34,206 nucleotides of DNA from IMG/VR virus record IMGVR_UViG_3300047552_001772, positions 1 through 34,206 of that record, one strand, 5' to 3'. Below are positions 1,148-33,713 of the stretch, in pieces. The DNA comes from a virus. Each line of letters starts with the position of its first letter. Positions within the stretch are counted from its first letter, which is position 1. The translations under genes and the position numbers were made by a program. A model generated the notes under the pieces. It did not search any database and was not told the origin of the DNA. It worked only from the letters and a program-made list of their open reading frames with translations.

Positions 1148-1153
1148 ATTGTA
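1148..1153 (-). promoter_or_regulatory. -10 box for the antisense gene, leaderless spacing
   Basis: The minus strand reads TACAAT here and the hexamer ends 8 nt before the ATG at 1139. No SD lies between, so initiation would fall at or next to the start codon. No convincing -35 box is visible. Confidence 0.45.
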
Positions 1154-1176
1154 CAGATATTTAATCTTTGATGTGT

Positions 1177-1228
1177 TATAGTGGAAATGTAGTTAAATTC
1201 ACGGTAATGGGAACCGAACCCTAGGAGA
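1177..1228 (+). promoter_or_regulatory. Promoter, leader and SD of the tail tube gene
   Basis: A TATAGT -10-like hexamer at 1177-1182 would give a leader of about 48 nt. The leader ends with a strong SD, AGGAGA (1223-1228), 9 nt before the ATG at 1238. Unlike the leaderless-type starts nearby, this leader fits a gene that must be made in high copy. Confidence 0.5.
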
Positions 1229-1237
1229 AATATTTTT

Positions 1238-1789
1238 ATGGCAGGCAAAGTACCTAGCTTCGTAACGGGAGCTACAGCAAAGATTAAAGCAGGCGGACTT
1301 ACGTTCGCTTACGCACAGGATGTTAGTTATCGAGTCAACGTAGATACGATTCCGGTTGAGACTATGGGTCGCTACGAAGCGGTGTCAAATGAGCCCGTAA
1401 ATTACAGTGTTGCTGGCGAACTATCAGTTGTTCGATACACAGCGATAGCACAGACTAACGGCATGCCTGGTGCAGCGGCAGGTGGTAACGGTTTAGGCAA
1501 TGCAAACTGGCTTACTGGCGGTAAGGGTTCCGATGAATTTAACCCCGGCAACCTAATTACATCACAGACTTGGGATCTAGCTGTATTTCAGAAGGTCACA
1601 AGTGGTTACAACACTCCTGTCAGTGATGCGAAGCAAGTAATTACTATTACTGATTGCCGTTTTAACAACAAGGGTGCTGGTCTAAACAAGCGCGGCATTC
1701 TTGTTGATCGTCTATCCTTCGTCGGCATTCTCGCGAGCGATGACAGCTTCACCGCAACCAACTCAGGTGATGCGGATCTATCACAGTAA
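1238..1789 (+). CDS. Tail tube protein (first of three tube-fold paralogs)
   Basis: The 183-residue product is the likely major tail tube subunit, which stacks in rings inside the sheath and forms the DNA conduit. It begins MAGKVPSFVTGATAKIKAGG, passes through a beta-rich segment (YAQDVSYRV, then VAGELSVVRY) and ends with a LNKRGILVDRLSFVGILASD strand. The next gene's product shares this layout (TGATAKI near the N-terminus, FQKV in the middle, GLNKR near the C-terminus). It follows the sheath, is the shortest of the three paralogs, and has the strongest SD of the three plus its own terminator, all consistent with a high-copy structural subunit. The terminator isolates it from downstream genes. 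Whether it or the next gene is the main tube subunit is inferred from expression signals. Confidence 0.75.
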   Translation: MAGKVPSFVTGATAKIKAGGLTFAYAQDVSYRVNVDTIPVETMGRYEAVSNEPVNYSVAGELSVVRYTAIAQTNGMPGAAAGGNGLGNANWLTGGKGSDEFNPGNLITSQTWDLAVFQKVTSGYNTPVSDAKQVITITDCRFNNKGAGLNKRGILVDRLSFVGILASDDSFTATNSGDADLSQ

Positions 1790-1812
1790 ATTTTAAGTTG
1801 TTCGAGAAGGAG

Positions 1813-1844
1813 AAGCTCCACTAAGATTTTTAGTGGAGCTTTTT
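1813..1844 (+). terminator. Rho-independent terminator after the tail tube gene
   Basis: An 11-bp perfect stem (AAGCTCCACTA at 1813-1823 with 1831-1841) has a 7-nt loop and runs into a T tract at 1840-1844, 24 nt after the tube stop. It would also stop antisense transcripts started from the palindromic -10 element just downstream. Confidence 0.85.
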
Positions 1845-1861
1845 CGTTGTCGAATCATTTA

Positions 1862-1875
1862 TACATTATAATGTA
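1862..1875. promoter_or_regulatory. Perfectly palindromic -10 element before the second tube-like gene
   Basis: TACATTATAATGTA is an exact 14-bp palindrome. It carries TATAAT on the plus strand (1867-1872), ending 9 nt before the ATG at 1882, and the same hexamer on the minus strand. No SD lies between the box and the ATG. Plus-strand transcripts would be leaderless or nearly so; minus-strand transcripts would run straight into the terminator at 1813-1844. Confidence 0.55.
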
Positions 1876-1881
1876 ATTACT

Positions 1882-2556
1882 ATGGCTGGAATTAAACCAA
1901 CTTTTCTCACAGGTGCTACGGCAAAGATTCGTCTGAATGGTAAAACATTAGCGTTTTGCCAGGATTTTAGCTGCTCTGTTCAGATATTAACAAAGACACC
2001 AAAAGTATTAGGAAAGTACGAAGGTGATTCGGTCGAACCTCTTAGCTATATGGTAAGTGGAAGTTTTACTGTTATTAGATATGTGAAAGGTATCAGAGAC
2101 GTTCTTGGATTTCGTGCTCCCAATGGCTTAGCACAGAATGATGCCGGTAACGGAGTTGGTAACTGGGGCACACAATGGGGCGGAAAAGAAGGAGATATAT
2201 TTGCTCGTAATGGCTTTGGTAATGATGGTCGAGCACATGAAGCTTTAGATCCTAGCAAGTTCGGCTCTGGCACCACTTTTGATATCCAGATTTTTCAAAA
2301 AGTAGCCAAAAACTCTAATCGTACAATAAATGAAAATCCTCTTACCGCAGTGACAGAGGCGCTATCTGGTTCTGCGAATCTTGGTCCAGGTAGTGGACCA
2401 GATGTAGATTATCTGGGTGTACTAAATATCCGAAATGCTCGTATTACACAAGCTGATTTTGGTCTAAATAAGCGTTCTCTTGCGTCTGAACGTTTTAACT
2501 TTGTAGCACTTTACGTTGATGGCGACGGCTTTGTAGCCAATGCGAGTGGCACCTAA
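1882..2556 (+). CDS. Tail tube-like protein, second paralog
   Basis: A 224-residue paralog of the preceding tube protein. It shares the N-terminal MAGxxPxFxTGATAKI pattern, the CQDFSCSV strand, the YMVSGSFTVIRY strand, the TFDIQIFQKV strand and the C-terminal DFGLNKRSLASERFNFVAL segment. It is longer because of a Gly/Asn-rich insertion at about residues 75-130 and a loop near 155-175. It could be a tube cap, a tube initiator or a minor tube variant. The start is the ATG 9 nt after a TATAAT box; there is no SD. Its stop overlaps the next start (TAATG), so the two genes are probably translationally coupled. Homology to the first tube protein is clear by eye; the specific role is inferred. Confidence 0.65.
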   Translation: MAGIKPTFLTGATAKIRLNGKTLAFCQDFSCSVQILTKTPKVLGKYEGDSVEPLSYMVSGSFTVIRYVKGIRDVLGFRAPNGLAQNDAGNGVGNWGTQWGGKEGDIFARNGFGNDGRAHEALDPSKFGSGTTFDIQIFQKVAKNSNRTINENPLTAVTEALSGSANLGPGSGPDVDYLGVLNIRNARITQADFGLNKRSLASERFNFVALYVDGDGFVANASGT

Positions 2557-3185
2557 TGACAACTGGATTCCAAAACGTTCCTGACGTTGGTCAGCAACTT
2601 ACAGATAACGTGCTTGAAGGAAACCTGGGCGGAATTTTCTCGACTCGTCCGAGTGCGAAATATTTATCTGGAGCTAGATGTATCTTAAAGATCAATAATA
2701 GACCAGTTGGTTTTGCATTTGCCGTTCAGTGGCGAATAGATACATTGTACGCGGAAATTAATGCCGTCGACAATCCTCTGCCAGAAGAACTTGTACCGAA
2801 AGCAATAAAAGTCTCTGGTTCTATTTCTGCTCTTCACATTCCTGGACAAGGTGCTGGTGTACAACTCTGGCAGCCAGATGTTTTAAGTTTCTTGTTTCAC
2901 CAATATCTAACTATTGAAGTAAGAGATAGGACTACTGGTTCACTTTTATTTTTAGCGACAAAGGCAGTTATTACTAGTCGTCAAGAAGATATACGAGTAG
3001 ATGACTTAGCTCAAGTTAGTTTGAACTTTCAAGCTATTGGCTATCAGGATGAGAAGGTTCCCGCTGTTCCTGAAAAATCTCTTACTCAGAGTAGTGCAAC
3101 ATCACTAAACAATGGCGATATAAACACTGAGCCTAAAGAAGACATCAATTCAGCATCAAGGTTGATTACAGGTCTCTTAGGTTAA
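2556..3185 (+). CDS. Tail tube-fold structural protein, third and most divergent paralog
   Basis: A 209-residue protein. From about residue 38 it follows the tube layout: SGARCILKINNRPVGFAFAV matches the TGATAKIxxNGxxxAFxQD strand pair of the upstream protein, IKVSGSISAL matches its MVSGSFTVI strand, and LAQVSLNFQAIGYQDE matches the closing strand. An N-terminal extension of about 37 residues and a polar C-terminal tail (from about 165) are extra. It may be a tube terminator, a tube-to-baseplate adaptor or a minor ring. It starts on the overlapping TAATG, so it is probably co-translated with the previous gene. The tube-like fold is moderately certain; the role is not known. Confidence 0.55.
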   Translation: MTTGFQNVPDVGQQLTDNVLEGNLGGIFSTRPSAKYLSGARCILKINNRPVGFAFAVQWRIDTLYAEINAVDNPLPEELVPKAIKVSGSISALHIPGQGAGVQLWQPDVLSFLFHQYLTIEVRDRTTGSLLFLATKAVITSRQEDIRVDDLAQVSLNFQAIGYQDEKVPAVPEKSLTQSSATSLNNGDINTEPKEDINSASRLITGLLG

Positions 3186-3220
3186 TTAAGTATAATAACT
3201 TTAGTATACATATTTTGGAG
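3186..3220 (+). promoter_or_regulatory. Promoter and SD for the tail assembly chaperone genes
   Basis: TTAAGTATAATA (3186-3197) contains TATAAT at 3191-3196 and is identical over 12 nt to the divergent promoter at 32057-32068. A TTGGAG SD (3215-3220) lies 5 nt before the ATG at 3226. The expected start near 3203 gives a short leader of about 23 nt. Confidence 0.5.
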
Positions 3221-3225
3221 ATAAA

Positions 3226-3615
3226 ATGGATCTACCATCGACAGAGACAGTTTTTGATTTTGAATTTACTAGTGATCTTGGCAGGAAGTATGACGGCCGT
3301 TTCACTGTTCGTTGTTTGCTCAATATGAAGCAGAAACACCTGTTGGAGCTAGAGAAGACTCGTCTCCTGGGTAGTTACACGAATCCGACAGATGAGCTTG
3401 CCGGGATCGCAGTAATTCTAGCAAATCTTCGCAATCGAATTATCGATGGTCCTCCATGGTGGGTACAAAGCGATGGTGGATATGAAATTTCTGATATCGA
3501 TACACTGACAGCGCTTTATAATAAGGTTCTAACTGCGGAGACGGAATGGCGCAACAAGCTAAAAGAGAAGACCAAGAAGCTTCCGGAGACGAGCCCAACG
3601 TCGTCGAATGTATAA
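3226..3615 (+). CDS. Tail assembly chaperone, first frame (G-like)
   Basis: A 129-residue protein directly before the tape measure region, the standard place for the tail assembly chaperones that hold the tape measure while the tube polymerises around it. It starts with a beta-like segment (VFDFEFTSDLGRKYDGRFTV), then a helical, charged middle (KQKHLLELEKTRLLG), then a helical tail (TALYNKVLTAETEWRNKLKE) ending in a Ser/Pro-rich stretch. A second open frame in -1 overlaps its last 90 nt, the arrangement seen in lambda G and G-T, where a fraction of ribosomes shift to make a fusion. The identification comes from position, size and the overlapping frame, supported by the downstream frame's sequence. 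Confidence 0.65.
   Translation: MDLPSTETVFDFEFTSDLGRKYDGRFTVRCLLNMKQKHLLELEKTRLLGSYTNPTDELAGIAVILANLRNRIIDGPPWWVQSDGGYEISDIDTLTALYNKVLTAETEWRNKLKEKTKKLPETSPTSSNV
3525..3615 (+). other. Overlap of chaperone frames; candidate -1 programmed frameshift region
   Basis: The -1 frame opens after a TAA at 3522-3524 and the zero frame stops at 3613-3615, so a shift must occur between. The best candidate is the zero-frame run AAG CTA AAA GAG at 3556-3567, where a tRNA on AAA can re-pair with AAA one base back. This is not a canonical X XXY YYZ heptamer, because the P-site codon CTA does not re-pair well with GCT. Independent initiation at the ATG at 3546, with GGAG at 3537-3540, is an alternative. Confidence 0.4.
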
Positions 3616-4037
3616 AAGCTATAGCGGCTTATAACGCTAGAGCCGACATTACTACAGAGCACCAAATGACTCTTTTCTTAAAGAGTTGGTGGTCTAATAC
3701 TTATAATCGACCCTTAAAAGATCCGCTCCTCGAGAGTTATACACTCGAGGAATTGTTGTATGAATTCTATGACAAGTTGGAACGTCAGAAGGCCATCGAA
3801 GAGAGAACCGTCAAAGAAACCGAGAAAGCAGAAGAAGTCAAAGAAAAAGAAGTGCTTGATTGGGCCGAAGCAGAAGAAAAGAAAGAGCTTGAAGAGATGC
3901 GAAAGGCTGCTGAAAAGGTCAGTGATCCAACCAAAGATCCTGAGAACATTAAGTGGATGGAACAACAATTAGAAGCAGCTAGACACATTCATGGTGAGAC
4001 TTTTGGCGAAGACATTGAAGTTAATTTTGATGAATAA
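3546..4037 (+). CDS. Tail assembly chaperone, second frame (T-like), -1 frame
   Basis: A 163-residue product if it starts at the ATG at 3546; the frame is open from 3525, so it may be made only as a fusion. Residues 40-78 carry the segment WWSNTYNRPLKDPLLESYTL followed by EELLYEFYDKLER, a pattern I associate with tail assembly chaperones of large myoviruses. The second half (about 80-125) is a long Glu/Lys-rich helix, probably a coiled coil, in keeping with a protein that binds the helical tape measure. The tape measure gene follows after 73 nt. GGAG at 3537-3540, 5 nt before the ATG, would allow separate initiation. Chaperone role likely; mode of expression unresolved. Confidence 0.7.
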   Translation: MAQQAKREDQEASGDEPNVVECIKAIAAYNARADITTEHQMTLFLKSWWSNTYNRPLKDPLLESYTLEELLYEFYDKLERQKAIEERTVKETEKAEEVKEKEVLDWAEAEEKKELEEMRKAAEKVSDPTKDPENIKWMEQQLEAARHIHGETFGEDIEVNFDE

Positions 4038-4062
4038 AAAGTCTTAATAAGTCAGATAATGC

Positions 4063-4104
4063 TACAATAGAAGCTATTGAAGGCTGTTTCAATAGAACTG
4101 AGGA
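4063..4104 (+). promoter_or_regulatory. Promoter, leader hairpin and SD of the tape measure gene
   Basis: TACAAT at 4063-4068 is a -10 candidate. CAATAG (4065-4070), CTATTG (4074-4079) and CAATAG again (4090-4095) can form two alternative hairpins; the downstream one has an 8-bp stem (4074-4081 with 4088-4095) and a 6-nt loop. The SD GAGGA (4100-4104) lies 6 nt before the ATG at 4111 and just outside the stem. Confidence 0.4.
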
Positions 4105-4110
4105 TGAGCT

Positions 4111-7245: not shown

Positions 7246-7248
7246 CAA

Positions 7249-10124: not shown

Positions 10125-10132
10125 ACCTAAGT

Positions 10133-10142
10133 TATAATTGTA
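10133..10142. promoter_or_regulatory. -10 element before the baseplate gene at 10146, near-symmetric
   Basis: TATAATTGTA reads TATAAT on the plus strand (10133-10138), 7 nt before the ATG at 10146, and TACAAT on the minus strand. No SD lies between. The plus transcript would begin almost exactly at the ATG. The preceding bases (CTAAGT) resemble the TTAAG before TATAAT at 3186 and 32057. Confidence 0.5.
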
Positions 10143-10145
10143 ATC

Positions 10146-11081
10146 ATGAGTGATAACATTCTTCCTACAGTAAGTCAAGGTCCCCAAAAAGAACTAGTAG
10201 ACTGGTTTTACGCAAATGCTGATTATCAGCCAATTCTCAGCAATTGGTTCACTGCTAAACCATATGGTTTTCGCTTTACTCCTAAGAATGGTGAAGCGAA
10301 AGTGATGTATTTGCCAATTGGACCGAGCAATCTATCTATTACTACATATTTCGCTACTAATATTGTGCCAACAATATATGGAACGGTCGAAGAGCACTCG
10401 CCTGTTCGCTATTACGACATCGTGATAGAAGGTACGACAGGCATGGGACCCAAATTTGTCGCCCCTATCAACGCGAATGTAAAACCTGATTTGAAAAATG
10501 GATCACAGAAGTCTGGTCGGTCGTCATTCGCAATTCAACAGAGCATGACTTCAGGCTTCTTTTCAAAGACATTAAGTACCCTTGATAAGACCTTTCGTGA
10601 CATAAGTGCCTTGACAGGAAAGACGGCGCCCGCAGTGACTGGTCTACAATTGGATCAGACTGGCTATCTTGCGTTTCACAATCTTTATCGCTTCTTCTTG
10701 AAATACAAGAAAGATGCCTCTGGTACTGATCAAAAGAATGACACAACTGCTCGACCTGAGAATGCTAAACATCCATTGGTGTTCTTTAACTATAAAGATA
10801 ACAATGAATACAATGTAGCAATTAGGTCTTTTTCTCTTCGTAGAGATAAAGAAAATCCAATGTTGTATTATTACAACATTACTATGAGAGGCTACAATCT
10901 CAATGAGATTAGCAATTCAGATAGTGTTCAAAATGTAGAGAGTCAAGAATCGATGCTTGCCAAGTTAGGTCTTGATGGAGTCAAGGGATCTAGCTTTTTG
11001 ACTTCAGCTAAGAAATTTGCGACTCAAGGCAGGGACATTCTGGGATCAGTGGCTAATGGTGTGAACCAACTAGGACGATAA
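10146..11081 (+). CDS. Conserved baseplate or tail structural protein, function unassigned
   Basis: A 311-residue protein between the spike and the gp25-like wedge. Residues 38-110 hold the most distinctive part: YGFRFTPKNGEAKVMYLPIG, PSNLSITTYFATNIVPTIYG and VRYYDIVIEGTTGMGPKF. The second half includes YLAFHNLYRFFLKYKK and a beta pattern NPMLYYYNITMRGYNL. Paired strands with 'YYDIxIxGTTG' and 'YYYNIxMRGY' suggest two similar beta sandwiches, as in tube-initiator or hub-adaptor proteins, but I cannot name the family. In Mu-like order, this slot sits between spike and wedge genes. The start follows a TATAAT box by 7 nt, with no SD. Structural role likely; exact role unknown. Confidence 0.6.
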   Translation: MSDNILPTVSQGPQKELVDWFYANADYQPILSNWFTAKPYGFRFTPKNGEAKVMYLPIGPSNLSITTYFATNIVPTIYGTVEEHSPVRYYDIVIEGTTGMGPKFVAPINANVKPDLKNGSQKSGRSSFAIQQSMTSGFFSKTLSTLDKTFRDISALTGKTAPAVTGLQLDQTGYLAFHNLYRFFLKYKKDASGTDQKNDTTARPENAKHPLVFFNYKDNNEYNVAIRSFSLRRDKENPMLYYYNITMRGYNLNEISNSDSVQNVESQESMLAKLGLDGVKGSSFLTSAKKFATQGRDILGSVANGVNQLGR

Positions 11082-12671: not shown

Positions 12672-12684
12672 GTCTTGCAATTAC

Positions 12685-12707
12685 CATAGTAGAATGGAGT
12701 TACTATG
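12685..12707 (+). promoter_or_regulatory. Start region of the giant wedge gene: -10 box, SD and start-codon hairpin
   Basis: TAGAAT at 12690-12695 is 9 nt before the ATG at 12705, and GGAG at 12696-12699 is 5 nt before it. CATAGTA (12685-12691) and TACTATG (12701-12707) are perfect inverted repeats enclosing the SD in a 9-nt loop and burying the start codon. A transcript started from the -10 box would lack the left arm; a read-through transcript would have both arms. Confidence 0.4.
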
Positions 12708-15700
12708 TCAATAGAGATAAAGTCGTTCAATCAGATATTAGGTGGTATGGTCCGGAAAATCATTGCCGAGACTCCCCTAAGTGATGTCAACCCAGGTTCT
12801 GTCTTTCTTTCGCTACTTGAAGCGTGCGCCAGTCAAGATTTTGACAACAATGTCGCTATTTTGAGCATTCTTGAGCTACTAAATGTAGATGCAATCAGGA
12901 ATAATGATCTGGACAATAAAGCTGCCGATTTGGGTCTAGAGCGAAAAGCAGCCGTTGCAGCAACTGGTACAGTACGAATCAAGAATACCAATATAGTAAA
13001 GCAGAGCACCTCTCTTTATAGCTTGAAGCCAGCTCCCATTTCGGGACAAACAGTCTTATTTGTTAACAACACGAGTGGCTGGACAGCATCTGGTTCGCTT
13101 TACATAGGGCGTGGGACGAATTCCTTTGAAGGACCTATAGTCTATACGAGCATCACTACGTATCCAACATATTCAGAGATCACGCTAGGCACTGCTCTCC
13201 AGAAAGACCATCTTGCCTCTGATCTTGTAGTCAATGCACAAGGACAACCAGACAGAGTCATCAATGCAGGCACCATCGTTAAGATTCCAGCCAATAATCA
13301 GAACCCAGAGATCGTGTACAACACGATCCGCGATGCCGTTATTCCTGCCGGCGAAGACTATATAGATGATGTATTAGTTGTTGCTCAGTCTCCTGGAACA
13401 CAGGGCAACGCTTTACTTAACACTATTAATCAATTTGACACCGTACCATTTATTGGAGCAGCGGTCACTAATACTGTTGCGTTTACTACTGGTTCAGATA
13501 TTGAAACAGACGTTGAATTACGAAATCGAATTAAAGCATATGCTTCATCATTGGCACGTGGAACAGCACCGAGCATCTTGAGCGCTGTCATCGGTCTCTC
13601 TGATCCTGATGAGAATAAGCGAGTAGCTTCTGCAATTTTGTCGCAGCCAGTCTCAGTTAATGCCCCATCAATTCTTTATATTGATGATGGTCGAGGTTTT
13701 CAGCCTTCACAAGCAGGACAGGCCATCGACGTTCTTCTTGCAAGAGCAAATGGCACAGAGGAGTTTCTCCAGTTAGCCAACTATCCGGTTCCTAGAGTTC
13801 AAGTTGTAAATGATGCTTCAGGTCCATTTGAACTTGTTGACCAAATGTTCTTGCGCGTCGCGGTTGATGGCGTAGAAGAAACAATCATCTTTACAGAGAC
13901 AGATTTTTCTAACATTTCGGTGGCTACTCTTGCTGAAATCGTCTCAGCCATTAATGATAAATCAATCTCTTTTAAAGCTCGTCTTACGGATGATTCCTCT
14001 CACATCTTACTATTTGCCATCGATCCTGATGCTGAGACAATTCAAGTAGCGCCTATCAAAGCATCAGATAATGAGGCACTCTACTCAAACAATATTCTTA
14101 ACTTTCCAGTTAAAGAAGTTAGTTACATTGCCTTGTTTCAGAACAGTACAAGACTGCGCCAGCGGGAAAAAACGGCGACTGTAGAGACGATTCCATTTGC
14201 TTTCTGGAATCTATTATCAACAGGGGATTTAGGCATATCTGTAGACGGAACCCCCACTCAGACTCAAACTTTCAGTCTATCCGATTTTCCCAATGCATCT
14301 TCGTTTTCACTACTGACTATCGACGATTGGGTATCAGCCTTTAATAGAAAGTTTGCCGGAATTACAGCTTCTTCGACGCCTAATCAGACGATGCAGATCA
14401 GTAGCAACAAGCAAGGTTCGACGGCCACTGTTGAAATAGTGGGTGGTAGCTATAAAAATCAAATGTTTGGTGCAAACGCAGTTTCTGCTACTGGCCAATC
14501 TTCGCAATTTGAGATCAACCGCTCTACTGGTAACATTCGCCTCCTCACAGATGTAGTATCTGGCGATGTCGTTAGTGCTGGTATTGCAGATGCTAAAGGT
14601 TTTATAGTATCTACAGTTACGACATCAGGTCTATATAATTTTGATGTTGATACAAATGGTCGACAAGCACAGATGGTAATTTGTTCAGATGCATCGATCT
14701 GTAAAAAGATCGACCTAGATCTATCAATTGATCAAACTTTAGTTATAACTAATCAAGGTAGCAGTGTCATGCGTATCAAAGCTGATAACATTGACACGTT
14801 CCGTTATATTCAACCTGGTCACTATCTCTATATGGCTTATCGAAGTGTTGGATCGGGATGGATAAATCAGGCAAATAGTGGTCTTTTTAAGGTTATTCGA
14901 CGTGGTGCTCACACTAATGCAGGCACAGACACTTACATCGAAGTACTGAATGGTGGAATTATTGGTGAAACCGTAACTGTAGCAGACATCACAGATATGG
15001 TTGCTTTTCAAACAGATGTCTATCCGCAACTTTGGACTTCTTCCTATCTAACAAATCCTCTTGCTGCTTCATTAGATGATGTTGCTTCGTCAATCAATGA
15101 CTCGCTGATTGGAATCAAGGCGTCAATTTTTAGGACTAATTCTGTAAAGATCACTTCTACAACTGAAGAGAGTGGAAGTATTGCCATACCCGTCTCTATC
15201 GGTGCAGCGTCTACAATCTTCATCGCGACAGAAGATTTGCAAGTTAATAACGATCCATTAATTGCTAACAAAATTTCATCAAAAGACATGACAGGATTCA
15301 TTAAGTTTCCTGCTATAATTTCAAGCAATACTTACTTGGGTCGAGCAACCTATCCAACAGTGTTTGCTTCACTGTCGGCAAGCGCCGTTCCAGATGCCTA
15401 TCCATACAGTGGAGCATATTCTGAGACTCTCACGGCCGCCGCATTGACAGATGCTAATGTAAACCTGTCCAACATTGTCTCTTTTGAACGAGGAAGCAAT
15501 GAGGGATTGACTCGTTCTATTGCTGCCAAACCAACTAATACAACAGTAGGCACGCAGCAAGGACTACCTCGAACTCTATTTGATCATGTTATAAATGATA
15601 AAGTACAAGTTTATAACTCATTGCAGATGGCCCAAGATGACAACATTGTCATTGCTATGGATAAAGATGTAACTACTAAGACAATTACGATACCGATAGC

Positions 15701-18700
15701 TAGAACAGGACGAGTTAACTCGGGAAGCAACCTGCTCTCCTTTATTCCCAATAGTACGGAATTTTCGGCGTCAGATAATGACAATGAGCCAGGAGTCGAT
15801 TTTAGCACGGTGAATGTCTGGGGTACGAGCCTCAATGGCACTGATTTTAGCGACTATCGTCTATTGATGCGCGCTCGCAATTGGTACGCCAGCGGCGGAA
15901 CTACATCCGGTAATGGAAAATTCATGGTTAGATCGGCAGAATTCGGCACAAATGGAAATTTATTCCGCTTCGCTATTAATTATCCCGCACTGCCAAATCT
16001 AGACAACACAACTGTGTTGTCTAATACTCCTTCTCATAATCAACTGGTTTATAAATTTGCTTCAGGCTCAGATCGAACGGTTGGACTTGGACTCAGCACC
16101 GTTGTTAGCATAACTGGTCCATATAGTAACGATAGTATCAACTTTCCTGGTGGAGCTTCAGATGGCCCGTCGGGTGAATATTTTGACTTAGCATGGGGAA
16201 CTGGTAACTTCACTACTGTTCAAGTAAATGATGTTTTGAGTACTTTCAGTGGTAGCGGGTTTTCAGGGACCCTTTTAGGTCAATTTGGAATTAAAGCTAA
16301 GAGCGGAAACACGATCCGGATCTTTCACCCTAGTGGAGTTGTAGGTTCGGTGACAGTTACCAATCCAGATCTCGTACATTTCTTCCCGTTACAGAAGACT
16401 ACGGTAGCAGACATAATAAGTAAGATCAATGAATCGAATATCCTTGTGGCAGCCGCGATTAGTCTTCCAAGTGCAAGCATTGTAACTTCTACACTTGAAG
16501 ATCAATATAACTACACTACCGATGCGACAGCATTAGGGCACGATCACAATCCTACTGATGTAAACGTGCGCTCGTTCGTATCGCTATTCGATGGTGTAGG
16601 TGACATTCGATCATTCTCTAACGCCAATCCTAACTTTACACTTAAGACAGGTCTCGTTCTTCCAAGCACTGGCGTATCTTCGTCGATCTATAGAATGGAT
16701 ACGACAGTGAATGAAGATTCTACTGTGGGTGAATATTTCAAGTTAGTTCCAAGCACTATTAAGAACATTCATCACCACTTTACGCAAAAGGCGCTTTCTC
16801 AACTACCTATCGTTGCAGATGTATCGATAGCTAATAACAACAAGCGTGTGCAAATCGTGTCTAAAGAGCTAGGAAGTAAAGGAGCAATTGAGATTCTTGG
16901 TGGCCAGGGAAATGTGGCTCAAACATCAATTATAGGTCAAAGCATTGTTACTTCTGATACTAGCGGAAGCTACTTATTAGCTTCTATTTCGGCATTCCCG
17001 AATACTTATTCAGTAGGTGATGTAGTTAAGGTCACGAATTCACGTGGCGTTCAGAGAGCGACACAATTTGCCTCTTCTAGTACTTTAGATGTTTCTGCTC
17101 TAGTCAGCAATAGAGCAGAGTACTACTGGAATCCAGTGACAACGAATTTTGGAGCTACAACGACTTTCGCAATTACAGATGTGTCTAGTTCATATACTGA
17201 TTACAACGGCTCTCCTCTATCTGCTGGTATCGTCTGGCGTTGGACGCATAGCATAGGAAATGCAGAGACGCTTTCTGCAGTTCAACCAGGTCAACAGGTC
17301 ATAGCCTTTGATTGCACGGGTTGGAAAAATACCAATCAAGCTAAATTACCCGGCGATGGAACGACCGTTGGTTTAATAATAATCAATGTGAATGACGTTT
17401 CTCACTACTTCGACGTCGTCAATCCTTTTGGTCAGGCAATGGGAGCAACAGCAATAGGAACTGGAACTGTAAGTATCTGTCCAGTGCCGCGAAATCGTTG
17501 GAATCTTGCCCACGCCTCTCCTACTCCTATTAGTTCTTTACAACGTGCCAGCAACGTAATCACTGTACAAACCACAACTTCGCATAACATGAATTCTGGT
17601 GATAGCGCAGTCATTAACGACAGTTTGAGCATTGTAGCAGATGGAACTTATGGTCCAATTACGGTAACTGGTCCACAGACATTCACGTTTGCTGATACAG
17701 GTCCTAACCTAACTGAACTCAATATTGGCGCAACTACTATAAAATCAACATTCACGAGATCTTCATATCGGTTGCAAAAAATGGGTTTTGGAAATCTAGT
17801 TCAAATTTCTCACACTACTGGTGATTCACCGAGATTTGCAGACTGTGGCGTAGCCGTAGATGACTATCTGATCCTCCAAGGAAAGACCTTCAACAGCTCA
17901 AACAATGGTGTTTATAGAATTGTTGCTGTAGATAACACGTCAATTGTGTTTGAACACAAAGGTGCGATAGATAACCGAAATCTGACAACTCTTTTTAACC
18001 AGAATTCGATTGCGGCACAATGGACAGCAAACAGTAATATTGTAGAAGGTAGCGCAGGAACATTCAAGCATCTCGTAACTGGTAGATGGGTAAAGAAAGA
18101 AGAAGATAGTGATGCTCTATATCTACAGGTCACGGGATGCGATACTAACGATTATTCGACAGCAACTAAGATCTTTTTAGGTCAAACTTATAATGGTGTC
18201 ACTGGTTCTGCTCTCGGAATATCATATAATATGGTCACATCATATGATCTTGGTGTTTATCTAGATACTATTGACGACATCTTGATCTATGAGGGTGATT
18301 CGGCTTTTAAGACCGATAAACTAAACGTTCAAACAGTTACAGATGCTACATGGTTTGATCCTAACAATACAGGTCAGTTCGATATCATCGAGATCGGGAA
18401 CAATCCTTCAGATCGTAGACCCTTTGTGCGCGTGAATAATGCAGTCGCTGTAACACAAATCAATAGACAATTATCAGCCACCCCTCAAGGGTTTTATGTT
18501 GTCGAAAATGACACCTACAAATATTCAACTTATCGTACAGTTGCAAACTCTGTCATCAGTGACACAAACAATCTACGACGCAATCTATATCTACTTCCTG
18601 ACGCTCGCGCGTATAAAATTGACAGCGCTAATGACTCCATTATTCAACATGTGGGTAAACTTGGTTACGATTTAATCACCGCTACGGGCACTGATGGATA

Positions 18701-19094
18701 CCTATTCTATACAGGTTTACTGCGTCGAGTTCAACGAACAGTTGATGGATTCAGTCCGGATCCAATTACATATGCTGAACGAAGAGCGGTCGGTTCTCGC
18801 ATTGAGATCTTGCCTCCTCTAATCAAGAACATCTCTTTGGTTCTTACGATTACAACCAATGAAGGATCTTCAGTTCAGGATGTATCGAACAATGTCAAGT
18901 CATCTATTATCGACTACGTTAATGGTCTTGGTGTTGGAGATGATGTGATCTTGTCTGCCATCATCGCAGCCGTAATGAAAGTAAAGGGTGTTGCCGCTGC
19001 TACTTTCAACAGTCCAGTGCCGTCGACTGAAAGAATAACAATTGCTTCAAACGAAAAAGCACTCATCTTTGCTGATATGATTGGTATTATCTAA
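12705..19094 (+). CDS. Giant baseplate wedge protein, J/gp6/Mu gp47 type, 2129 aa
   Basis: The first 330 residues follow the Baseplate_J plan (DLDNKAADLGLERKAAVAAT, a GTVRIKN strand, RVINAGTIVKIPA, then TDVELRNRIKAYASSLARGT). The last 140 resume it (AVGSRIEILPPLIKNISLVL, VNGLGVGDDVILSAIIAAV, VKGVAAATFNSPVP). Usual family members are a few hundred residues, so about 1600 residues are inserted between. The insert holds repeats of a 'TxxDxxxxIN...IxAxxxxxxxxIxSxxxGSxxxIxIxGG' type near residues 407, 537, 788, 1232 and 1355, like flagellin-hook IN motifs, and several 'GDxIxI...NGxYxVxxVDxxTxxF' beta modules (about 704, 1614, 1717). Wedges join hub to fibres, so the insert may form an outer baseplate arm. 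It is flanked by gp25-like and I-like genes. The J identity is firm; the insert function is unknown. Confidence 0.8.
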   Translation: MSIEIKSFNQILGGMVRKIIAETPLSDVNPGSVFLSLLEACASQDFDNNVAILSILELLNVDAIRNNDLDNKAADLGLERKAAVAATGTVRIKNTNIVKQSTSLYSLKPAPISGQTVLFVNNTSGWTASGSLYIGRGTNSFEGPIVYTSITTYPTYSEITLGTALQKDHLASDLVVNAQGQPDRVINAGTIVKIPANNQNPEIVYNTIRDAVIPAGEDYIDDVLVVAQSPGTQGNALLNTINQFDTVPFIGAAVTNTVAFTTGSDIETDVELRNRIKAYASSLARGTAPSILSAVIGLSDPDENKRVASAILSQPVSVNAPSILYIDDGRGFQPSQAGQAIDVLLARANGTEEFLQLANYPVPRVQVVNDASGPFELVDQMFLRVAVDGVEETIIFTETDFSNISVATLAEIVSAINDKSISFKARLTDDSSHILLFAIDPDAETIQVAPIKASDNEALYSNNILNFPVKEVSYIALFQNSTRLRQREKTATVETIPFAFWNLLSTGDLGISVDGTPTQTQTFSLSDFPNASSFSLLTIDDWVSAFNRKFAGITASSTPNQTMQISSNKQGSTATVEIVGGSYKNQMFGANAVSATGQSSQFEINRSTGNIRLLTDVVSGDVVSAGIADAKGFIVSTVTTSGLYNFDVDTNGRQAQMVICSDASICKKIDLDLSIDQTLVITNQGSSVMRIKADNIDTFRYIQPGHYLYMAYRSVGSGWINQANSGLFKVIRRGAHTNAGTDTYIEVLNGGIIGETVTVADITDMVAFQTDVYPQLWTSSYLTNPLAASLDDVASSINDSLIGIKASIFRTNSVKITSTTEESGSIAIPVSIGAASTIFIATEDLQVNNDPLIANKISSKDMTGFIKFPAIISSNTYLGRATYPTVFASLSASAVPDAYPYSGAYSETLTAAALTDANVNLSNIVSFERGSNEGLTRSIAAKPTNTTVGTQQGLPRTLFDHVINDKVQVYNSLQMAQDDNIVIAMDKDVTTKTITIPIARTGRVNSGSNLLSFIPNSTEFSASDNDNEPGVDFSTVNVWGTSLNGTDFSDYRLLMRARNWYASGGTTSGNGKFMVRSAEFGTNGNLFRFAINYPALPNLDNTTVLSNTPSHNQLVYKFASGSDRTVGLGLSTVVSITGPYSNDSINFPGGASDGPSGEYFDLAWGTGNFTTVQVNDVLSTFSGSGFSGTLLGQFGIKAKSGNTIRIFHPSGVVGSVTVTNPDLVHFFPLQKTTVADIISKINESNILVAAAISLPSASIVTSTLEDQYNYTTDATALGHDHNPTDVNVRSFVSLFDGVGDIRSFSNANPNFTLKTGLVLPSTGVSSSIYRMDTTVNEDSTVGEYFKLVPSTIKNIHHHFTQKALSQLPIVADVSIANNNKRVQIVSKELGSKGAIEILGGQGNVAQTSIIGQSIVTSDTSGSYLLASISAFPNTYSVGDVVKVTNSRGVQRATQFASSSTLDVSALVSNRAEYYWNPVTTNFGATTTFAITDVSSSYTDYNGSPLSAGIVWRWTHSIGNAETLSAVQPGQQVIAFDCTGWKNTNQAKLPGDGTTVGLIIINVNDVSHYFDVVNPFGQAMGATAIGTGTVSICPVPRNRWNLAHASPTPISSLQRASNVITVQTTTSHNMNSGDSAVINDSLSIVADGTYGPITVTGPQTFTFADTGPNLTELNIGATTIKSTFTRSSYRLQKMGFGNLVQISHTTGDSPRFADCGVAVDDYLILQGKTFNSSNNGVYRIVAVDNTSIVFEHKGAIDNRNLTTLFNQNSIAAQWTANSNIVEGSAGTFKHLVTGRWVKKEEDSDALYLQVTGCDTNDYSTATKIFLGQTYNGVTGSALGISYNMVTSYDLGVYLDTIDDILIYEGDSAFKTDKLNVQTVTDATWFDPNNTGQFDIIEIGNNPSDRRPFVRVNNAVAVTQINRQLSATPQGFYVVENDTYKYSTYRTVANSVISDTNNLRRNLYLLPDARAYKIDSANDSIIQHVGKLGYDLITATGTDGYLFYTGLLRRVQRTVDGFSPDPITYAERRAVGSRIEILPPLIKNISLVLTITTNEGSSVQDVSNNVKSSIIDYVNGLGVGDDVILSAIIAAVMKVKGVAAATFNSPVPSTERITIASNEKALIFADMIGII

Positions 19095-21379: not shown

Positions 21380-21391
21380 GTAGATAGGTAA

Positions 21392-21406
21392 AATTGTAGT
21401 ACAATT
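21392..21406. promoter_or_regulatory. Palindromic -10 element before the first fibre gene
   Basis: AATTGTA-G-TACAATT is a perfect 7+1+7 inverted repeat. It presents TACAAT on the plus strand (21400-21405) and on the minus strand (21398-21393). TAAAAT at 21389-21394 is a second possible box. The plus transcript would carry a leader of about 45 nt. Confidence 0.45.
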
Positions 21407-21407
21407 A

Positions 21408-21450
21408 GCGGGGATATGCCGCGATAATCCCAATAAAAATCGCGGGAGGA
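21408..21450 (+). promoter_or_regulatory. Leader with two mutually exclusive hairpins overlapping the SD
   Basis: CCGCGAT (21419-21425) pairs perfectly with ATCGCGG (21439-21445), whose last two bases are the first bases of the SD GGGAGGA (21444-21450), 7 nt before the TTG start at 21458. GCGG (21408-21411) can instead pair with CCGC (21419-21422), freeing the SD. This could be a translational switch or chance; no ligand or protein is implied. Confidence 0.35.
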
Positions 21451-21457
21451 TACTAAC

Positions 21458-25066: not shown

Positions 25067-25069
25067 CAA

Positions 25070-25080
25070 TATAATGAGGA
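25070..25080 (+). promoter_or_regulatory. -10 box and SD before the second fibre gene
   Basis: TATAAT at 25070-25075 begins 4 nt after the preceding stop and is followed at once by GAGGA (25076-25080), 6 nt before the ATG at 25087. A transcript from this box would begin only a few nt before the ATG and lose the SD; read-through mRNA from the previous gene would keep it. Confidence 0.4.
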
Positions 25081-25086
25081 ATTAAG

Positions 25087-27306: not shown

Positions 27307-27320
27307 AGTGAGAGAAAAAT

Positions 27321-28757: not shown

Positions 28758-29140
28758 ACATCTTCCATAGCAGATTGAAAGAAAGCTGAAGAGGCATCTA
28801 ATACCAATGTCTCTTCGCAATTATTGGTCTGAATAAAGAGCTGCGACCATTTGATCTCTACTACTGGATTGCTTCCATCATCTGGCTTTCGAAAAGAAAC
28901 ATAGCATTTTCGATCTAGAGAGCGCAATTGAAGTTCTAATTTATTTACTGCTAGATGGGTAAATGAAATAGAATATGGAGCGGAATTTTCATCCATTTTT
29001 TTAATTTTCTCATATTCTGTAAAGAACTCTGCTACCCAGTTTGCGACCGTTTTTTGACGTGAGACCTGTTTAGACAACATCTTTTTGCGAGCAACTTTTG
29101 CCTCAATCTCCTTCATCAGATCACGTTTCACATTACTCAT
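28754..29140 (-). CDS. Hypothetical protein at the end of the replication operon
   Basis: A 128-residue protein with no recognised family. The first 45 residues are helical and very basic (KRDLMKEIEAKVARKKMLSK), possibly a nucleic-acid-binding or coiled-coil part; the rest is mixed alpha/beta (CYVSFRKPDD, VVEIKWSQLFIQ). An AAGGGA SD lies about 7 nt before the ATG, and the start overlaps the primase stop as ATGA, so it is translated together with primase. Its own stop overlaps the fibre gene stop on the other strand. Being last in a helicase-primase operon suggests a replication accessory role, but that is context only. Confidence 0.6.
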   Translation of the reverse strand: MSNVKRDLMKEIEAKVARKKMLSKQVSRQKTVANWVAEFFTEYEKIKKMDENSAPYSISFTHLAVNKLELQLRSLDRKCYVSFRKPDDGSNPVVEIKWSQLFIQTNNCEETLVLDASSAFFQSAMEDV

Positions 29141-30012: not shown

Positions 30013-31079
30013 AACTTTAATCCTGCCTTATAATCTTCTCCAGCTAATTGTTCACCTTCTAGTTTATCTGTCAGCGTATTTAATTCTTTTTCGGCTCTAG
30101 CCCGTTGAATCTTTTGACGACGTAAGACCATCTCGGATTCCGATAACTGCTTTAGATATCTACCCTTTTCAAATGGGCATATGAACTTTCTACCAGCAAC
30201 ACCGAATCGGTCTTTGTGAATAATAAAGTCAGTCGTACTTTCATCGAAGTTTGGAACTGCTTCTATGATAACGGTAGCAGGTTCAACTACGGCAGAACAT
30301 TCTTTGATTCTAGCGTCGATATCTTTTACACCGCCCTTCTTACCCATCGAGTAGAGTTGAGCAAACAAACACACAGGTAATTCACACTTCTTGATGAATC
30401 GTCCTAACCAGACACGGAAATCATTAAGAACATCGTACCGAGTACGAGACTTATCTTTCGTTGAGTCTTTAATGAGTTGATAATAATCGATCAAGACTGC
30501 GTGATAGCCTTTTCCGATTACTGCTTCAAGTGCTGCCTGAACACCCTCAATCTTTGTTGTCAGACCATCTTTCCATGAGACATCTAAAACCTTCACATAC
30601 TTCATGATGTCTGGAAAAAGCTTGATACAATTTCGCTGCATCTCTTCAGACATCAGACCCTTTTTATAATCATTAAAATTATAACCTAGATCCAGCGCCG
30701 CAATACGCATTAGAATATCATGGCTAGTCTCTTCATTAGAGATGACCAGAATCTTCTTCTGTTGTTTCCACAGCGGATACGAGATATTTGCGGCAATGGT
30801 TGACTTACCCGAACCTGAAACAGCACAAAAGAGATAAAGACTTTCTTTAGTAAATGGAATAGCAGCAGTTAGTGTCTCGTTAATAAGAGTGATACGCTGC
30901 TTCATGATTCTGTTGTAGTCAGAAAGATTCTGAACGTTCTTTGTGAACGATTCTAGATCTCCAAAGCTGTCAATTTCTTCAAAAGAGACATCAATATTTT
31001 GTGCTGTATTGACACCGACTCTCTTCAACAGAGCCTCTTGTTCCTTATCACTTAGAATTGCCACTTGTTTTGGCTCCAA
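30009..31079 (-). CDS. Replicative DNA helicase, DnaB-type RecA-fold ATPase
   Basis: A 356-residue ring-helicase candidate that would unwind the fork and work with the primase encoded just downstream. Walker A is AVSGSGKST (residues 86-94, K92), a catalytic Glu lies in ISNEET (near 116), Walker B is HAVLIDYYQLI with D198, the Gln of motif H3 lies in LFAQLY (about 238-243), and HKDRFG (about 288-293) fits the arginine-finger strand. The DnaB N-terminal domain is absent; the first 80 residues are short and helical. The frame opens after a TAA and has no early ATG: the start may be TTG at 31079 or GTG at 31064, the latter with GGAG 9 nt upstream. The gene overlaps its upstream neighbour by about 30 nt and ends in an ATGA overlap with primase. 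Confidence 0.85.
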   Translation of the reverse strand: MEPKQVAILSDKEQEALLKRVGVNTAQNIDVSFEEIDSFGDLESFTKNVQNLSDYNRIMKQRITLINETLTAAIPFTKESLYLFCAVSGSGKSTIAANISYPLWKQQKKILVISNEETSHDILMRIAALDLGYNFNDYKKGLMSEEMQRNCIKLFPDIMKYVKVLDVSWKDGLTTKIEGVQAALEAVIGKGYHAVLIDYYQLIKDSTKDKSRTRYDVLNDFRVWLGRFIKKCELPVCLFAQLYSMGKKGGVKDIDARIKECSAVVEPATVIIEAVPNFDESTTDFIIHKDRFGVAGRKFICPFEKGRYLKQLSESEMVLRRQKIQRARAEKELNTLTDKLEGEQLAGEDYKAGLKL

Positions 31080-31575
31080 AAAGAAAATTTACTTCTTCCA
31101 TGGGATCGTAGTTCTCGTATAGTTTCTTCTCGAGTTCTGTCGTATCCATCACTGGAAATGAATCTGCGTACTCGCGTTGCATCTTATATTCTTTTGCGGT
31201 CATACTTCCATAAATAATCGGCTGATCTCTCTCTTCATCTTTTTTTGTCTCAAGTGGAAAGATGTTAAAGAATGCGACATTTGCCTTGTCAGTGATATCC
31301 TTCACCCACTGTTCTTCAAATTCTTGTTCATTAGAACAATAAAAATTTGAATTGGTCTTCAACTTCTTAAACATCGCCTTAACAAGGCTAGGTGCAGGGG
31401 AATGGGCTTTTATTGCTTTTGGTAGATATTCATAAGCACTCTCTAGCACCAATCCTTCTAGTCGCAGTGTCTCGAAAAAATCCTCGAAATTTCCTTGAAT
31501 AGCTGGAGTACGTCGATCACGATCAATAAGTGACGTCTTCCATTGCTCAAACAATAAATCGTATTTAGAAGTCAT
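31048..31575 (-). CDS. Hypothetical protein upstream of the helicase (possible helicase partner)
   Basis: A protein of 175 residues from the ATG at 31575, which has GAGGG 4 nt upstream; an in-frame ATG at 31593 (181 aa) has no SD. It is acidic and helical, with segments DFFETLRLEGLVLESAYEYL and PSLVKAMFKKLKTN and an acidic end (TTELEKKLYENYDPMEEVNF). I do not recognise the family and see no catalytic motif. It overlaps the helicase by about 30 nt, so the two are likely translated together, and phages often encode a small helicase loader or replisome adaptor in this place. That role is a guess from context. Confidence 0.6.
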   Translation of the reverse strand: MTSKYDLLFEQWKTSLIDRDRRTPAIQGNFEDFFETLRLEGLVLESAYEYLPKAIKAHSPAPSLVKAMFKKLKTNSNFYCSNEQEFEEQWVKDITDKANVAFFNIFPLETKKDEERDQPIIYGSMTAKEYKMQREYADSFPVMDTTELEKKLYENYDPMEEVNFLFGAKTSGNSK

Positions 31576-31621
31576 TAATCCCTCATTAATCAAATTGCGG
31601 ATTCATTCCATATGATACGTG

Positions 31622-31649
31622 AATAAAAGAAGGGCCTAATTAAAGCCTT
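31622..31649 (-). terminator. Probable terminator after the SNase-like gene
   Basis: On the minus strand a stem AAGGCTT with AGGCC(C)TT (about 7 bp with one bulged C, covering 31630-31649) is followed by CTTTTATT. It begins 11 nt past the SNase stop, so the nuclease may be partly uncoupled from the helicase-primase genes downstream. Confidence 0.45.
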
Positions 31650-31659
31650 AAAATACTTA

Positions 31660-32043
31660 TTATTTTTTATATGGAACAGCCAACTCGCCAACAAGTAATT
31701 GAGTAGCAAGATCCATTTTCGTGCCAGAGGCATCGAAAAAAGACACTGATGCTAGCCAGCGTCCAAAATTATCTGGATCTTTCTTGGTCTTGACAAGAAG
31801 GGTCCATTCTTTGTTGTTAAGGTCAGGTTTCAACCAATCCGAAGTTGCCTTTTTGGCAATTGCAGCAATTAATCTTTCTTCTGGAACTTTAGAATTCATC
31901 TCGGGCGTATTAACGCCCAAGATCCTAAAACGACCAGTGAAGGTGACGTGAAAACCTATATCAACATATAGATCTACTGTGTCTCCGTCTACAACATTCA
32001 AGCATCGTGCTCTAAATTCTGTCTCTGGAAATTCAATTGGCAT
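31660..32043 (-). CDS. Staphylococcal-nuclease-like endonuclease (SNase fold)
   Basis: The 127-residue product has the SNase core: VVDGDTVDLYVDIG (D19, D21), RFRILGVNTPEMN with R40, T46 and E48 corresponding to R35, T41 and E43 of staphylococcal nuclease, and DNFGRWLASVSF with R95 for R87. The D40 position is Asn (N45), as in various SNase-like relatives, so activity is plausible but unproven. There is no signal peptide, so it acts inside the cell, perhaps in host DNA breakdown or DNA processing. AAAGGA lies about 9 nt before the ATG. The gene is divergent from the SF2 helicase with only 31 nt between the starts. Confidence 0.82.
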   Translation of the reverse strand: MPIEFPETEFRARCLNVVDGDTVDLYVDIGFHVTFTGRFRILGVNTPEMNSKVPEERLIAAIAKKATSDWLKPDLNNKEWTLLVKTKKDPDNFGRWLASVSFFDASGTKMDLATQLLVGELAVPYKK

Positions 32044-32056
32044 GGTTACTAGTCCT

Positions 32057-32070
32057 TTAAGTATAATATG
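32057..32070. promoter_or_regulatory. Divergent promoter with overlapping symmetric -10 boxes
   Basis: TTAAGTATAATATG holds TATAAT on the plus strand (32062-32067), 7 nt before the ATG at 32075, and on the minus strand TATTAT and TATACT overlapping it. TTGGCA at 32037-32042 is a possible plus -35 with a long 19-bp spacer. Only 31 nt separate the two start codons. The minus gene has an SD; the plus gene has none. Confidence 0.55.
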
Positions 32071-32074
32071 TTAA

Positions 32075-33484
32075 ATGAACGTCACTATCACGAATGAAAA
32101 ACTCGAAATCATAGATCCAACAGATGAGATCGTCGCTTTTGCTAAAAAGCATCTATCTTATGTTGATAAAGCAAAACAATATCAACTAAAAAGAATGTCC
32201 AAGAATCCTTGGATGCGGACTTCACCTGCGTATGTTGCTCTTCAGCGAGAAATTAAAGGGCAGGTCTACAAGCTCGAAAGTAATGTGCTCACAATTCCTT
32301 CTGGCTTTATTAATTCATTCAATGAATACCTCTCTGGATCATCTTATACTGATAAACGTCAAGAGACAGGACGACGACTTGTGCTTCCATGGGAAACAAG
32401 ACCTTACAATTTGAGACCATATCAGTCAGAAGTGGTAGATATGCTCTTAGATCCTCTAAGATATCGTGGCATCGTGAATTTTGCGACAGGTCTTGGAAAG
32501 ACTCTCACTGCTCTACATTTTATCAAGTTATATCAGCGAAATACTCTTATTGTGTGTCCATCTGATTCTGTAGCGAAACAATTCTACACACAATGCGTAG
32601 ATGCGTTTGGAAAGAGTGTAGTAGGTTTTTATGGCGGTGGAAAAAAGAAGATAAACGACATCACGATAGGTATCGCGGCCTCTATCACGAGAAATGTAGA
32701 TGATTTTAAAAAGGCAAACTTTGGAGCGATAATTTTCGATGAAATTCATCACATAGCTGCCGATACTTTTTTTAATATTGCAGAAAACTTAACTGAAGTA
32801 GGAAAGGTGTTTGGGCTTACAGCTACCGATTATAGATCTGATGGCAAAGATATCATGATCACTGCGGGTTGTGGACCCGTCATCGCGAGACGAGATGTCA
32901 AGTGGGGAATAGAGAACAAGTTTCTTGCGGAGCCATACTTTATAGTTAGAGAGGTAGACACTGGAGGTAAAGACTTCAAAGACAATAAGCTTAAGAACTA
33001 TAAAGAGCATGTACTCAATAATTCCATCATGAAGAATAAGATATATAATGATGCACTTAACATGATCAATTCAAGTCGAAGTGTACTAATATTAGTAGAT
33101 GAGGTAGAGCATGGAAGAGAGTTATCTCAACTACTTAGTATTCCTTTTGCAACAGGGCAAGATTCTAAATCACAAGATTATGTTGATCAGCTCAATGAGG
33201 GAAAGATCAAAGGCCTCGTGGGAACAGATGGCCGTATCGGTGAAGGTACAGACACACAAAATGTGGATGTTCTCATTCTTGCTAACTTTGTTGCATCCAA
33301 GGGACCCGTTATACAAGCTGTGGGCAGAAGCCTTCGCAAAACAGTTACAAAGTCTAAGTGTTTAATTCTTGATTATATTCCATTGGGCTCAAAACAGTTG
33401 ACTAGACATGCCTGGAATAGGGTCGAATATTACAAAGAAATAACAGAAAAGGTGAAAATCATTCATGCTACTGACCAAAACTAA
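32075..33484 (+). CDS. SF2 DNA/RNA helicase (UvsW-like)
   Basis: A 469-residue superfamily 2 helicase. Motifs in order: Q-like RPYQSEVVDML (114-124), Walker A ATGLGKT (137-143), Walker B DEIHH (222-226), motif III LTAT (248-251), motif V GRIGEGTD (386-393) and motif VI QAVGRSLR (414-421). The N-terminal 110 residues are a separate domain of the kind found in T4 UvsW, which handles branched DNA and recombination-dependent replication; this gene is likely a UvsW-like relative, though a repair helicase is possible. The ATG lies 7 nt after TATAAT and has no SD, so a leaderless mRNA is likely. Its end overlaps the next small gene by 20 nt. Confidence 0.85.
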   Translation: MNVTITNEKLEIIDPTDEIVAFAKKHLSYVDKAKQYQLKRMSKNPWMRTSPAYVALQREIKGQVYKLESNVLTIPSGFINSFNEYLSGSSYTDKRQETGRRLVLPWETRPYNLRPYQSEVVDMLLDPLRYRGIVNFATGLGKTLTALHFIKLYQRNTLIVCPSDSVAKQFYTQCVDAFGKSVVGFYGGGKKKINDITIGIAASITRNVDDFKKANFGAIIFDEIHHIAADTFFNIAENLTEVGKVFGLTATDYRSDGKDIMITAGCGPVIARRDVKWGIENKFLAEPYFIVREVDTGGKDFKDNKLKNYKEHVLNNSIMKNKIYNDALNMINSSRSVLILVDEVEHGRELSQLLSIPFATGQDSKSQDYVDQLNEGKIKGLVGTDGRIGEGTDTQNVDVLILANFVASKGPVIQAVGRSLRKTVTKSKCLILDYIPLGSKQLTRHAWNRVEYYKEITEKVKIIHATDQN

Positions 33485-33692
33485 AGAACAAATTGCTTGG
33501 GATGCTCATTCTGCGGCCCTGCAAGCCATCAAAAATCACGCCTCTATGAATGGCTTAGGTTACAACTTATCTTCCCACTCACTGATGGGTCAATTAGCTG
33601 ACCTAATAGCTACAGCTGTCCAAGCCGGAGTTACCGAAGTTCTTAAGAACACCTATACAAATGAAGAGTTTGAGAAAGACATCGGACTCTAG
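33465..33692 (+). CDS. Small hypothetical protein between SF2 helicase and endolysin
   Basis: A 75-residue protein whose ATG lies within the last codons of the helicase, with a weak AAGGTG SD (33449-33454) 10 nt upstream. Helical, with a moderately hydrophobic segment (LMGQLADLIATAVQAGVTEV, about residues 40-60) and an acidic end. That segment is too polar for a clear membrane helix, so a holin reading is weak even though the endolysin follows. I do not recognise a family. Confidence 0.5.
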   Translation: MLLTKTKEQIAWDAHSAALQAIKNHASMNGLGYNLSSHSLMGQLADLIATAVQAGVTEVLKNTYTNEEFEKDIGL

Positions 33693-33698
33693 CTATGG

Positions 33699-33704
33699 TA
33701 AAAT
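33699..33704 (+). promoter_or_regulatory. -10 box before the endolysin gene, leaderless spacing
   Basis: TAAAAT ends 9 nt before the ATG at 33714, with no SD between. A small hairpin (ATAGT 33703-33707 with ACTAT 33711-33715) overlaps the start codon. Lysis would then have its own promoter, apart from the helicase. Confidence 0.4.
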
Positions 33705-33713
33705 AGTCTCACT

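Follow-up and report, generated by a model that had tools for sequence, protein, structure and literature searches.

The promoters of the Thermus phage phiYS40 consist of a single -10-like element. Most of the middle and late mRNAs of this phage are leaderless (PMC3594737), and leaderless cases have been predicted in the Cluster O mycobacteriophages (Corndog group) as well (PMC4351075). Among bacteria, TA-led genes have been reported to reach notable levels in Deinococcus-Thermus, Aquificae, Actinobacteria, delta-Proteobacteria and Acidobacteria (PMC3160421), and in Deinococcus -10 hexamers adjacent to open reading frames (ORFs) act as promoters (PMC12340547). Leaderless expression in phages is therefore already known. 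Here we describe a case for which the comparative support is unusually good, in the virus record IMGVR_UViG_3300047552_001772, from an uncultured tailed phage, a myovirus; its whole stretch of 34,206 bases is called the window below. The initial annotation of this DNA had considered leaderless mRNA unusual as a phage-wide strategy, a view that phiYS40 already qualifies.

Leaderless-type starts in the window

Six genes of the window, named by their first position (1139 on the minus strand, 1882, 10146, 12705, 32075 and 33714), had been reported to carry a TAnnAT-type hexamer 7-9 nucleotides (nt) before the ATG, and all six hexamers are present (Table 1). Five of the genes have no Shine-Dalgarno sequence (SD), as also reported, the exception being 12705 with GGAG 5 nt before its ATG. 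As judged from the sequence, at least five of the six are very probably expressed from sigma70-type, -35-independent promoters that would give leaders of 0-3 nt. The genes with this signature include the helicase as well as structural and lysis genes.

The initial annotation had proposed to compare the spacing between hexamer and ATG (the gap) with shuffled controls. With a strong hexamer defined as a TAnnnT that differs from TATAAT at no more than one position, and with curated starts, 6 of the 24 window genes have a hexamer at gap 7-9. In 2000 dinucleotide shuffles of the 60 nt upstream the mean was 0.55, and none reached 6. The control with internal ATGs gave an expectation of 0.15 for gaps 5-9.

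Spacing and conservation among relatives

Megablast of the first 25 kb of the window against 50,697 phage records gave no nucleotide match, and Myxococcus phage Mx1, with ~29-33% protein identity, was the nearest relative found among cultured phages. Uncultured relatives are many (41 contigs via the sheath, 23 via the 10146 protein), several of them 147-177 kb long. Gene calling in them took long ORFs with little overlap, beginning at the first ATG, and made no use of any motif. In five near-complete relatives (G003, G022, G023, G024 and G026; 147-177 kb; 1,103 genes) the hexamer stands at gap 6 in 71 genes, and every other gap in the range 0-24 has 0-15 genes (5 at gap 5, 12 at gap 7). A gap-6 peak was likewise seen in G027 and G028 and in phiYS40, the positive control, where 17/152 genes have the hexamer at gap 5-9. 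The negative controls gave, over the same gaps, 0/53 genes in a T4 region, 1/194 in a sister lineage (G009, G011, G016) and 0/167 in Mx1, which also differs from the lineage of the window by its annotated sigma factor gene. Genes with the hexamer at gap 5-9 make up 7-11% of each near-complete genome and ~13-29% of fragments of 20-70 kb centred on tail genes. The strategy is not the phage-wide one that had been suggested, since it concerns these fractions and about a quarter of the window genes, most genes being SD-led or abutting the previous gene.

The signature was found in 207 of 1,835 genes. A gene with a leaderless orthologue of less than 80% identity was itself leaderless with a probability of 0.66, the base rate being 0.11. 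The leaderless share is complete in the families of 1139, 10146 and 32075 and lowest in that of 12705 (Table 1). In the 10146 family TATAAT is the best-conserved upstream block, most of the flanking sequence being different. The computable predictions of a leaderless interpretation hold, as the spacing excess is large and the spacing is kept gene by gene in the relatives. In the sheath tree the window falls, with good support, into a group with other contigs that bear the signature; the deeper forks of this tree are poorly resolved, so it does not show that the trait arose once.

The coexistence of two translation modes, also claimed at the outset, is borne out, and one gene may switch mode between related phages. 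Several leaderless members of the 1882 family follow a terminator and several SD-led members stand directly after the previous gene; this is one gene with two predicted modes. In places, both members of a divergent gene pair are leaderless (around G002 6595 and G003 67853). Some orthologues of leaderless genes in sister phages have a TATAAT box and then an SD leader, as do those of 10146 in G007 (TATAAT-TAGGTAGGAGGTTTT-ATG) and G016 (TATAAT-ATGAACAGGAGATTTTTACG-ATG) and that of 33714 in G007 (TATAAT-AGCTTACAGGGAGTAAGTT-ATG). This arrangement is limited to some sister genes, and other sister orthologues have no obvious box. We regard as evenly balanced the broader proposal that leaderless starts would be a stable, clade-specific expression mode of uncultured myoviruses that form a large lineage of 147-177 kb phages, and that single genes would swap between leaderless and SD-led among relatives with the promoter kept, tracking operon structure and possibly a change to a host that translates leaderless mRNA efficiently.

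Promoter anatomy and proposed mechanism

The leaderless boxes of the lineage have the consensus (A/G)G-TATAAT, and leadered promoters with an exact TATAAT in the same phages read TGG-TATAAT. The hallmark of the leaderless boxes is the G directly before the hexamer. A classical TGn extended -10 was ruled out as hallmark, being present at 18-19% of leaderless and of all candidate leadered sites alike. The absence of a convincing -35 element, noted earlier for the window, extends to 178 leaderless sites, at which TTGACA with at most 2 mismatches occurs 33 times at spacers 15-19 versus 26 times at control spacers 27-31; promoters with a -10 element only, as in phiYS40-type expression, are found in the lineage.

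Leadered GTATAAT promoters of these phages favour a pyrimidine-A 7 nt past the box (0.38, versus 0.07-0.25 at other positions). The same position is the A of the ATG in gap-6 genes; leaders in the window would measure ~0-3 nt, with 5'-ACU-AUG predicted at 1882, 12705 and 33714. This shared start position suggests one polymerase and one start rule. An SD is found in 4/178 leaderless genes versus 626/1,299 other genes, and ATG accounts for 93% of gap-6 starts versus 77% of SD starts. In several relatives the box comes straight after the T-run of a terminator, as in CCCCGCTGGAAACAGCGGGGTTTTTGTATAATTTGTACATG of G003, and no room is left for a leader.

We propose that at least five of the six hexamers would be real sigma70-type, -35-independent -10 elements, that RNA polymerase would start ~7 nt past them, and that the first nucleotide of the mRNAs would be the A of the AUG or lie no more than ~3 nt before it. 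Such messages would be translated leaderless, without an SD, via recognition of the 5'-terminal AUG, and a promoter apparently of the same type (TGG-TATAAT) would also drive other genes via SD leaders of 20-90 nt. We infer the identity of polymerase and sigma factor, as well as the step in which the 70S ribosome engages the AUG. Several points weigh against this proposal. The 5' ends of the transcripts are predictions from the sequence, and the gene starts in the relatives come from a simple ORF caller. The gaps in the window are 7-9, 1-3 nt longer than the 6 that predominates in the lineage; this makes leaders of 1-3 nt likely, and messages of that kind can be translated less well than a bare AUG. 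The SD depletion arises partly by construction, because the box occupies the position of the SD.

Alternative explanations

The strongest alternative concerns 12705, which is a borderline hybrid with a promoter, a GGAG and orthologues whose leaders range from 1-3 nt to tens of nt. This gene alone could be SD-led, the box being part of a promoter whose short leader is incidental, and we consider this a serious contender falling somewhat short of an even chance. The position of the GGAG fits it, as do the closest relatives, which start at GTG after a GAGG-like SD, and G002, which has the same TAGAAT well upstream. The box is nevertheless also found 7-9 nt before the ATG in part of the orthologues (Table 1) and, if transcription starts 7 nt past the box, the promoter-proximal transcript would lack the GGAG. 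Under the leaderless reading the promoter would be there all the same, and the GGAG could serve read-through transcripts.

It is unlikely, though worth weighing, that the boxes are promoters set by a phage-encoded factor rather than by host sigma70 alone, like T4 late promoters or through a region-4-displacing factor favouring -35-independent promoters. The missing -35 element is compatible with this, and there are known examples of phage factors with a preference for extended -10 promoters, such as gp39 of P23-45 (PMC7403470). A conserved phage protein of ~135 amino acids (aa), with several conserved cysteines and a weak sigma region-4-like helix-turn-helix, is encoded at L021:13109-13549 of G003 and has orthologues in G009, G022-G024 and G026-G028. 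This protein might be a phage transcription factor modulating the host holoenzyme, but it is also present in the non-leaderless G009. Pfam sigma region 2 was absent in G022-G026 and region 4 in G003, divergent gp55-like factors not having been searched with a model of their own, and multisubunit RNA polymerase had no match in 12 records, several of which are fragments. The search for single-subunit RNA polymerase was uninformative, as no control responded. The motif, TATAAT, lacks the T4 late extension; the T4 late-promoter element TATAAATA is absent, and the logo of the lineage has no A/T conservation past the sixth base. The simplest reader of these promoters would be a host holoenzyme of the sigma70 type.

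Very little likelihood is left to the idea that the AT-rich box is a translation signal, an unstructured or S1-binding stretch on longer transcripts, with no promoter. A role as S1 sites has been discussed for AT-rich stretches upstream of non-SD genes (PMC5397173), but an exact TATAAT with a G at -13 and a fixed spacing, terminators that end directly before the box in relatives, and sister phages that place TATAAT further upstream of an SD all argue for a promoter. Chance, by which AT-rich DNA before starts would give TAnnAT words at any spacing, is already refuted by the shuffles, the conservation of the spacing in orthologues and the gap-6 peak of the relatives: loose TAnnnT words are common in the window (42% GC; shuffle mean 2.1 at gaps 7-9), but no shuffle equals the observed count, the peak is one nucleotide sharp and the AT-rich T4 region has no such gene.

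Leadered contrast genes

The leadered genes named in the initial annotation (1238, 3226, 4111 and 21458) match the sequence in having an SD, and their promoters are given in Table 1 beside the leaderless-type starts.

Table 1. Promoter hexamers and genes of the window (orthologue counts refer to predicted leaderless members)
Feature	Position	Strand	Relation to gene or predicted product	Basis
-10 hexamer TACAAT	1148..1153	-	8 nt before ATG of 1139(-)	sequence; 3/3 orthologues leaderless
Gene 1139(-)	837..1139	-	100 aa, predicted leaderless, no function assigned	
-10 hexamer TATAAT	1867..1872	+	9 nt before ATG of 1882	15/23 orthologues leaderless
Gene 1882	1882..2556	+	224 aa, predicted leaderless, paralogue (32% identity) of SD-led gene 1238	
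-10 hexamer TATAAT	10133..10138	+	7 nt before ATG of 10146	20/20 orthologues leaderless, 19 at gap 6
Gene 10146	10146..11081	+	predicted leaderless, virion structural protein (phrog_1011)	
-10 hexamer TAGAAT	12690..12695	+	9 nt before ATG of 12705, GGAG in between	sequence, orthologues
Gene 12705	12705..19094	+	baseplate wedge protein (phrog_6), leaderless or SD-led	7/17 orthologues at gap 7-9
-10 hexamer TATAAT (GTATAAT)	32062..32067	+	7 nt before ATG of 32075	10/10 orthologues leaderless
Gene 32075	32075..33484	+	predicted leaderless, DNA helicase (phrog_16)	
-10 hexamer TAAAAT (GGTAAAAT)	33699..33704	+	9 nt before ATG of 33714	8/9 orthologues leaderless
Gene 33714	33714..34166	+	predicted leaderless, endolysin (phrog_7)	
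Contrast -10 TATAGT, preceded by TGT	1177..1182	+	promoter of leadered gene 1238	sequence
Contrast GTATAAT	3191..3196	+	promoter of leadered gene 3226 (SD GGAG)	sequence
Contrast TGC-TACAAT	4063..4068	+	promoter of leadered gene 4111	sequence
Contrast GTACAAT	21400..21405	+	promoter of leadered gene 21458 (SD GGGAGG, TTG start)	sequence

The leader of the tail-tube-like gene 1238 (window 1189-1237) is structured and conserved in ~30 relatives. It contains a GGTA box, a hairpin with many different stems and the near-fixed loop AACC(G/A)NA(A), and then AGGAG; the GGU could pair with the ACC of the loop in a pseudoknot. The stems were counted by script because the MAFFT alignment misplaces the 3' stem, the loop length alternating between 7 and 8. 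The leader had no Rfam match and is a candidate new RNA element, which contrasts with the leaderless paralogue 1882. The leader of 21458 (window 21419-21457) contains the hairpin CCGCGAT...ATCGCGG, which extends into the SD GGGAGG and whose pairing is retained with changes in G002 (CCGCGAC...GTCGTGG) and G004.

Comparison with known systems and the host

Like phiYS40, the lineage would have many genes on transcripts without a leader, and it has the same gap-6 peak. The phiYS40 boxes, however, lack the G at -13, and its host is a thermophile and its 5' ends have been mapped, whereas here the starts are predicted. No phiYS40 hit was found among the sheath and terminase hits (all hits, 3 and 19 records) or the baseplate hits listed; the likeness to phiYS40 would be one of mechanism and is no evidence of kinship. 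With the TA-led genes of Deinococcus-Thermus and other bacteria it shares a TAnnnT ~6-7 nt before the start and the lack of an SD, alongside GGAG-led genes; these involve about a third of the genes and TANNNT, as opposed to phages, TATAAT and the lower share given above (PMC12340547, PMC3160421). In Cluster O a few promoters of actinophages are concerned, whereas here the signature is recurrent and conserved in orthologues, and the actinobacterial marker whiB had no match in 22 records.

All three matches of a sheath search of GTDB were metagenome-assembled genomes (MAGs) of Bacteroidota. In a 4 Mb Cytophagales MAG, 11 of the 18 GTATAAT-N6-ATG sites lie on a 147 kb phage contig itself, and a Saprospiraceae MAG has 15 such sites versus 22 at the gap-12 control. 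A Bacteroidota host is unsupported: apart from the phage contig, neither of these two MAGs carries the signature. The contig filed in the Cytophagales MAG (C305, LNEN01000305.1; L142 / G031) is a phage of this lineage. Because the promoter signature is concentrated there rather than in the remainder of the MAG, its binning may be wrong. Ribosomal protein S21 had no match in 14 records.

Gene content

The window encodes a cut tail sheath, tail-tube-like proteins, a probable tape measure of 1,044 aa, baseplate and tail fibre proteins, a primase, a DnaB-like helicase, an endonuclease, a helicase and an endolysin. Directly before the probable tape measure gene 4111, ORFs 3226-3615 and 3546-4037 overlap in the -1 frame and are candidate G/GT-like tail chaperones with a programmed frameshift. 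The relative G003 carries a GroEL-like chaperonin (phrog_5725, E 1e-92) at L020:7338-9056 (G003 107338-109056), IMP dehydrogenase and ribonucleotide reductase genes and, at L017:2544-2692, a transfer-messenger RNA called by ARAGORN with the odd tag ASQKGQCWVTA, which may be a false positive.

Significance

Leaderless expression of many phage genes has been known mainly from a Thermus phage. In the lineage described here, which is uncultured and widespread, it seems to be a heritable trait; a related lineage is nearly without it. The orthologues form natural pairs of leaderless and SD-led genes, some of them around a retained promoter, and the conditions that favour leaderless starts become directly testable. 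For such phages, the leaderless signature offers a cue for host prediction and a rule for the annotation of start codons.

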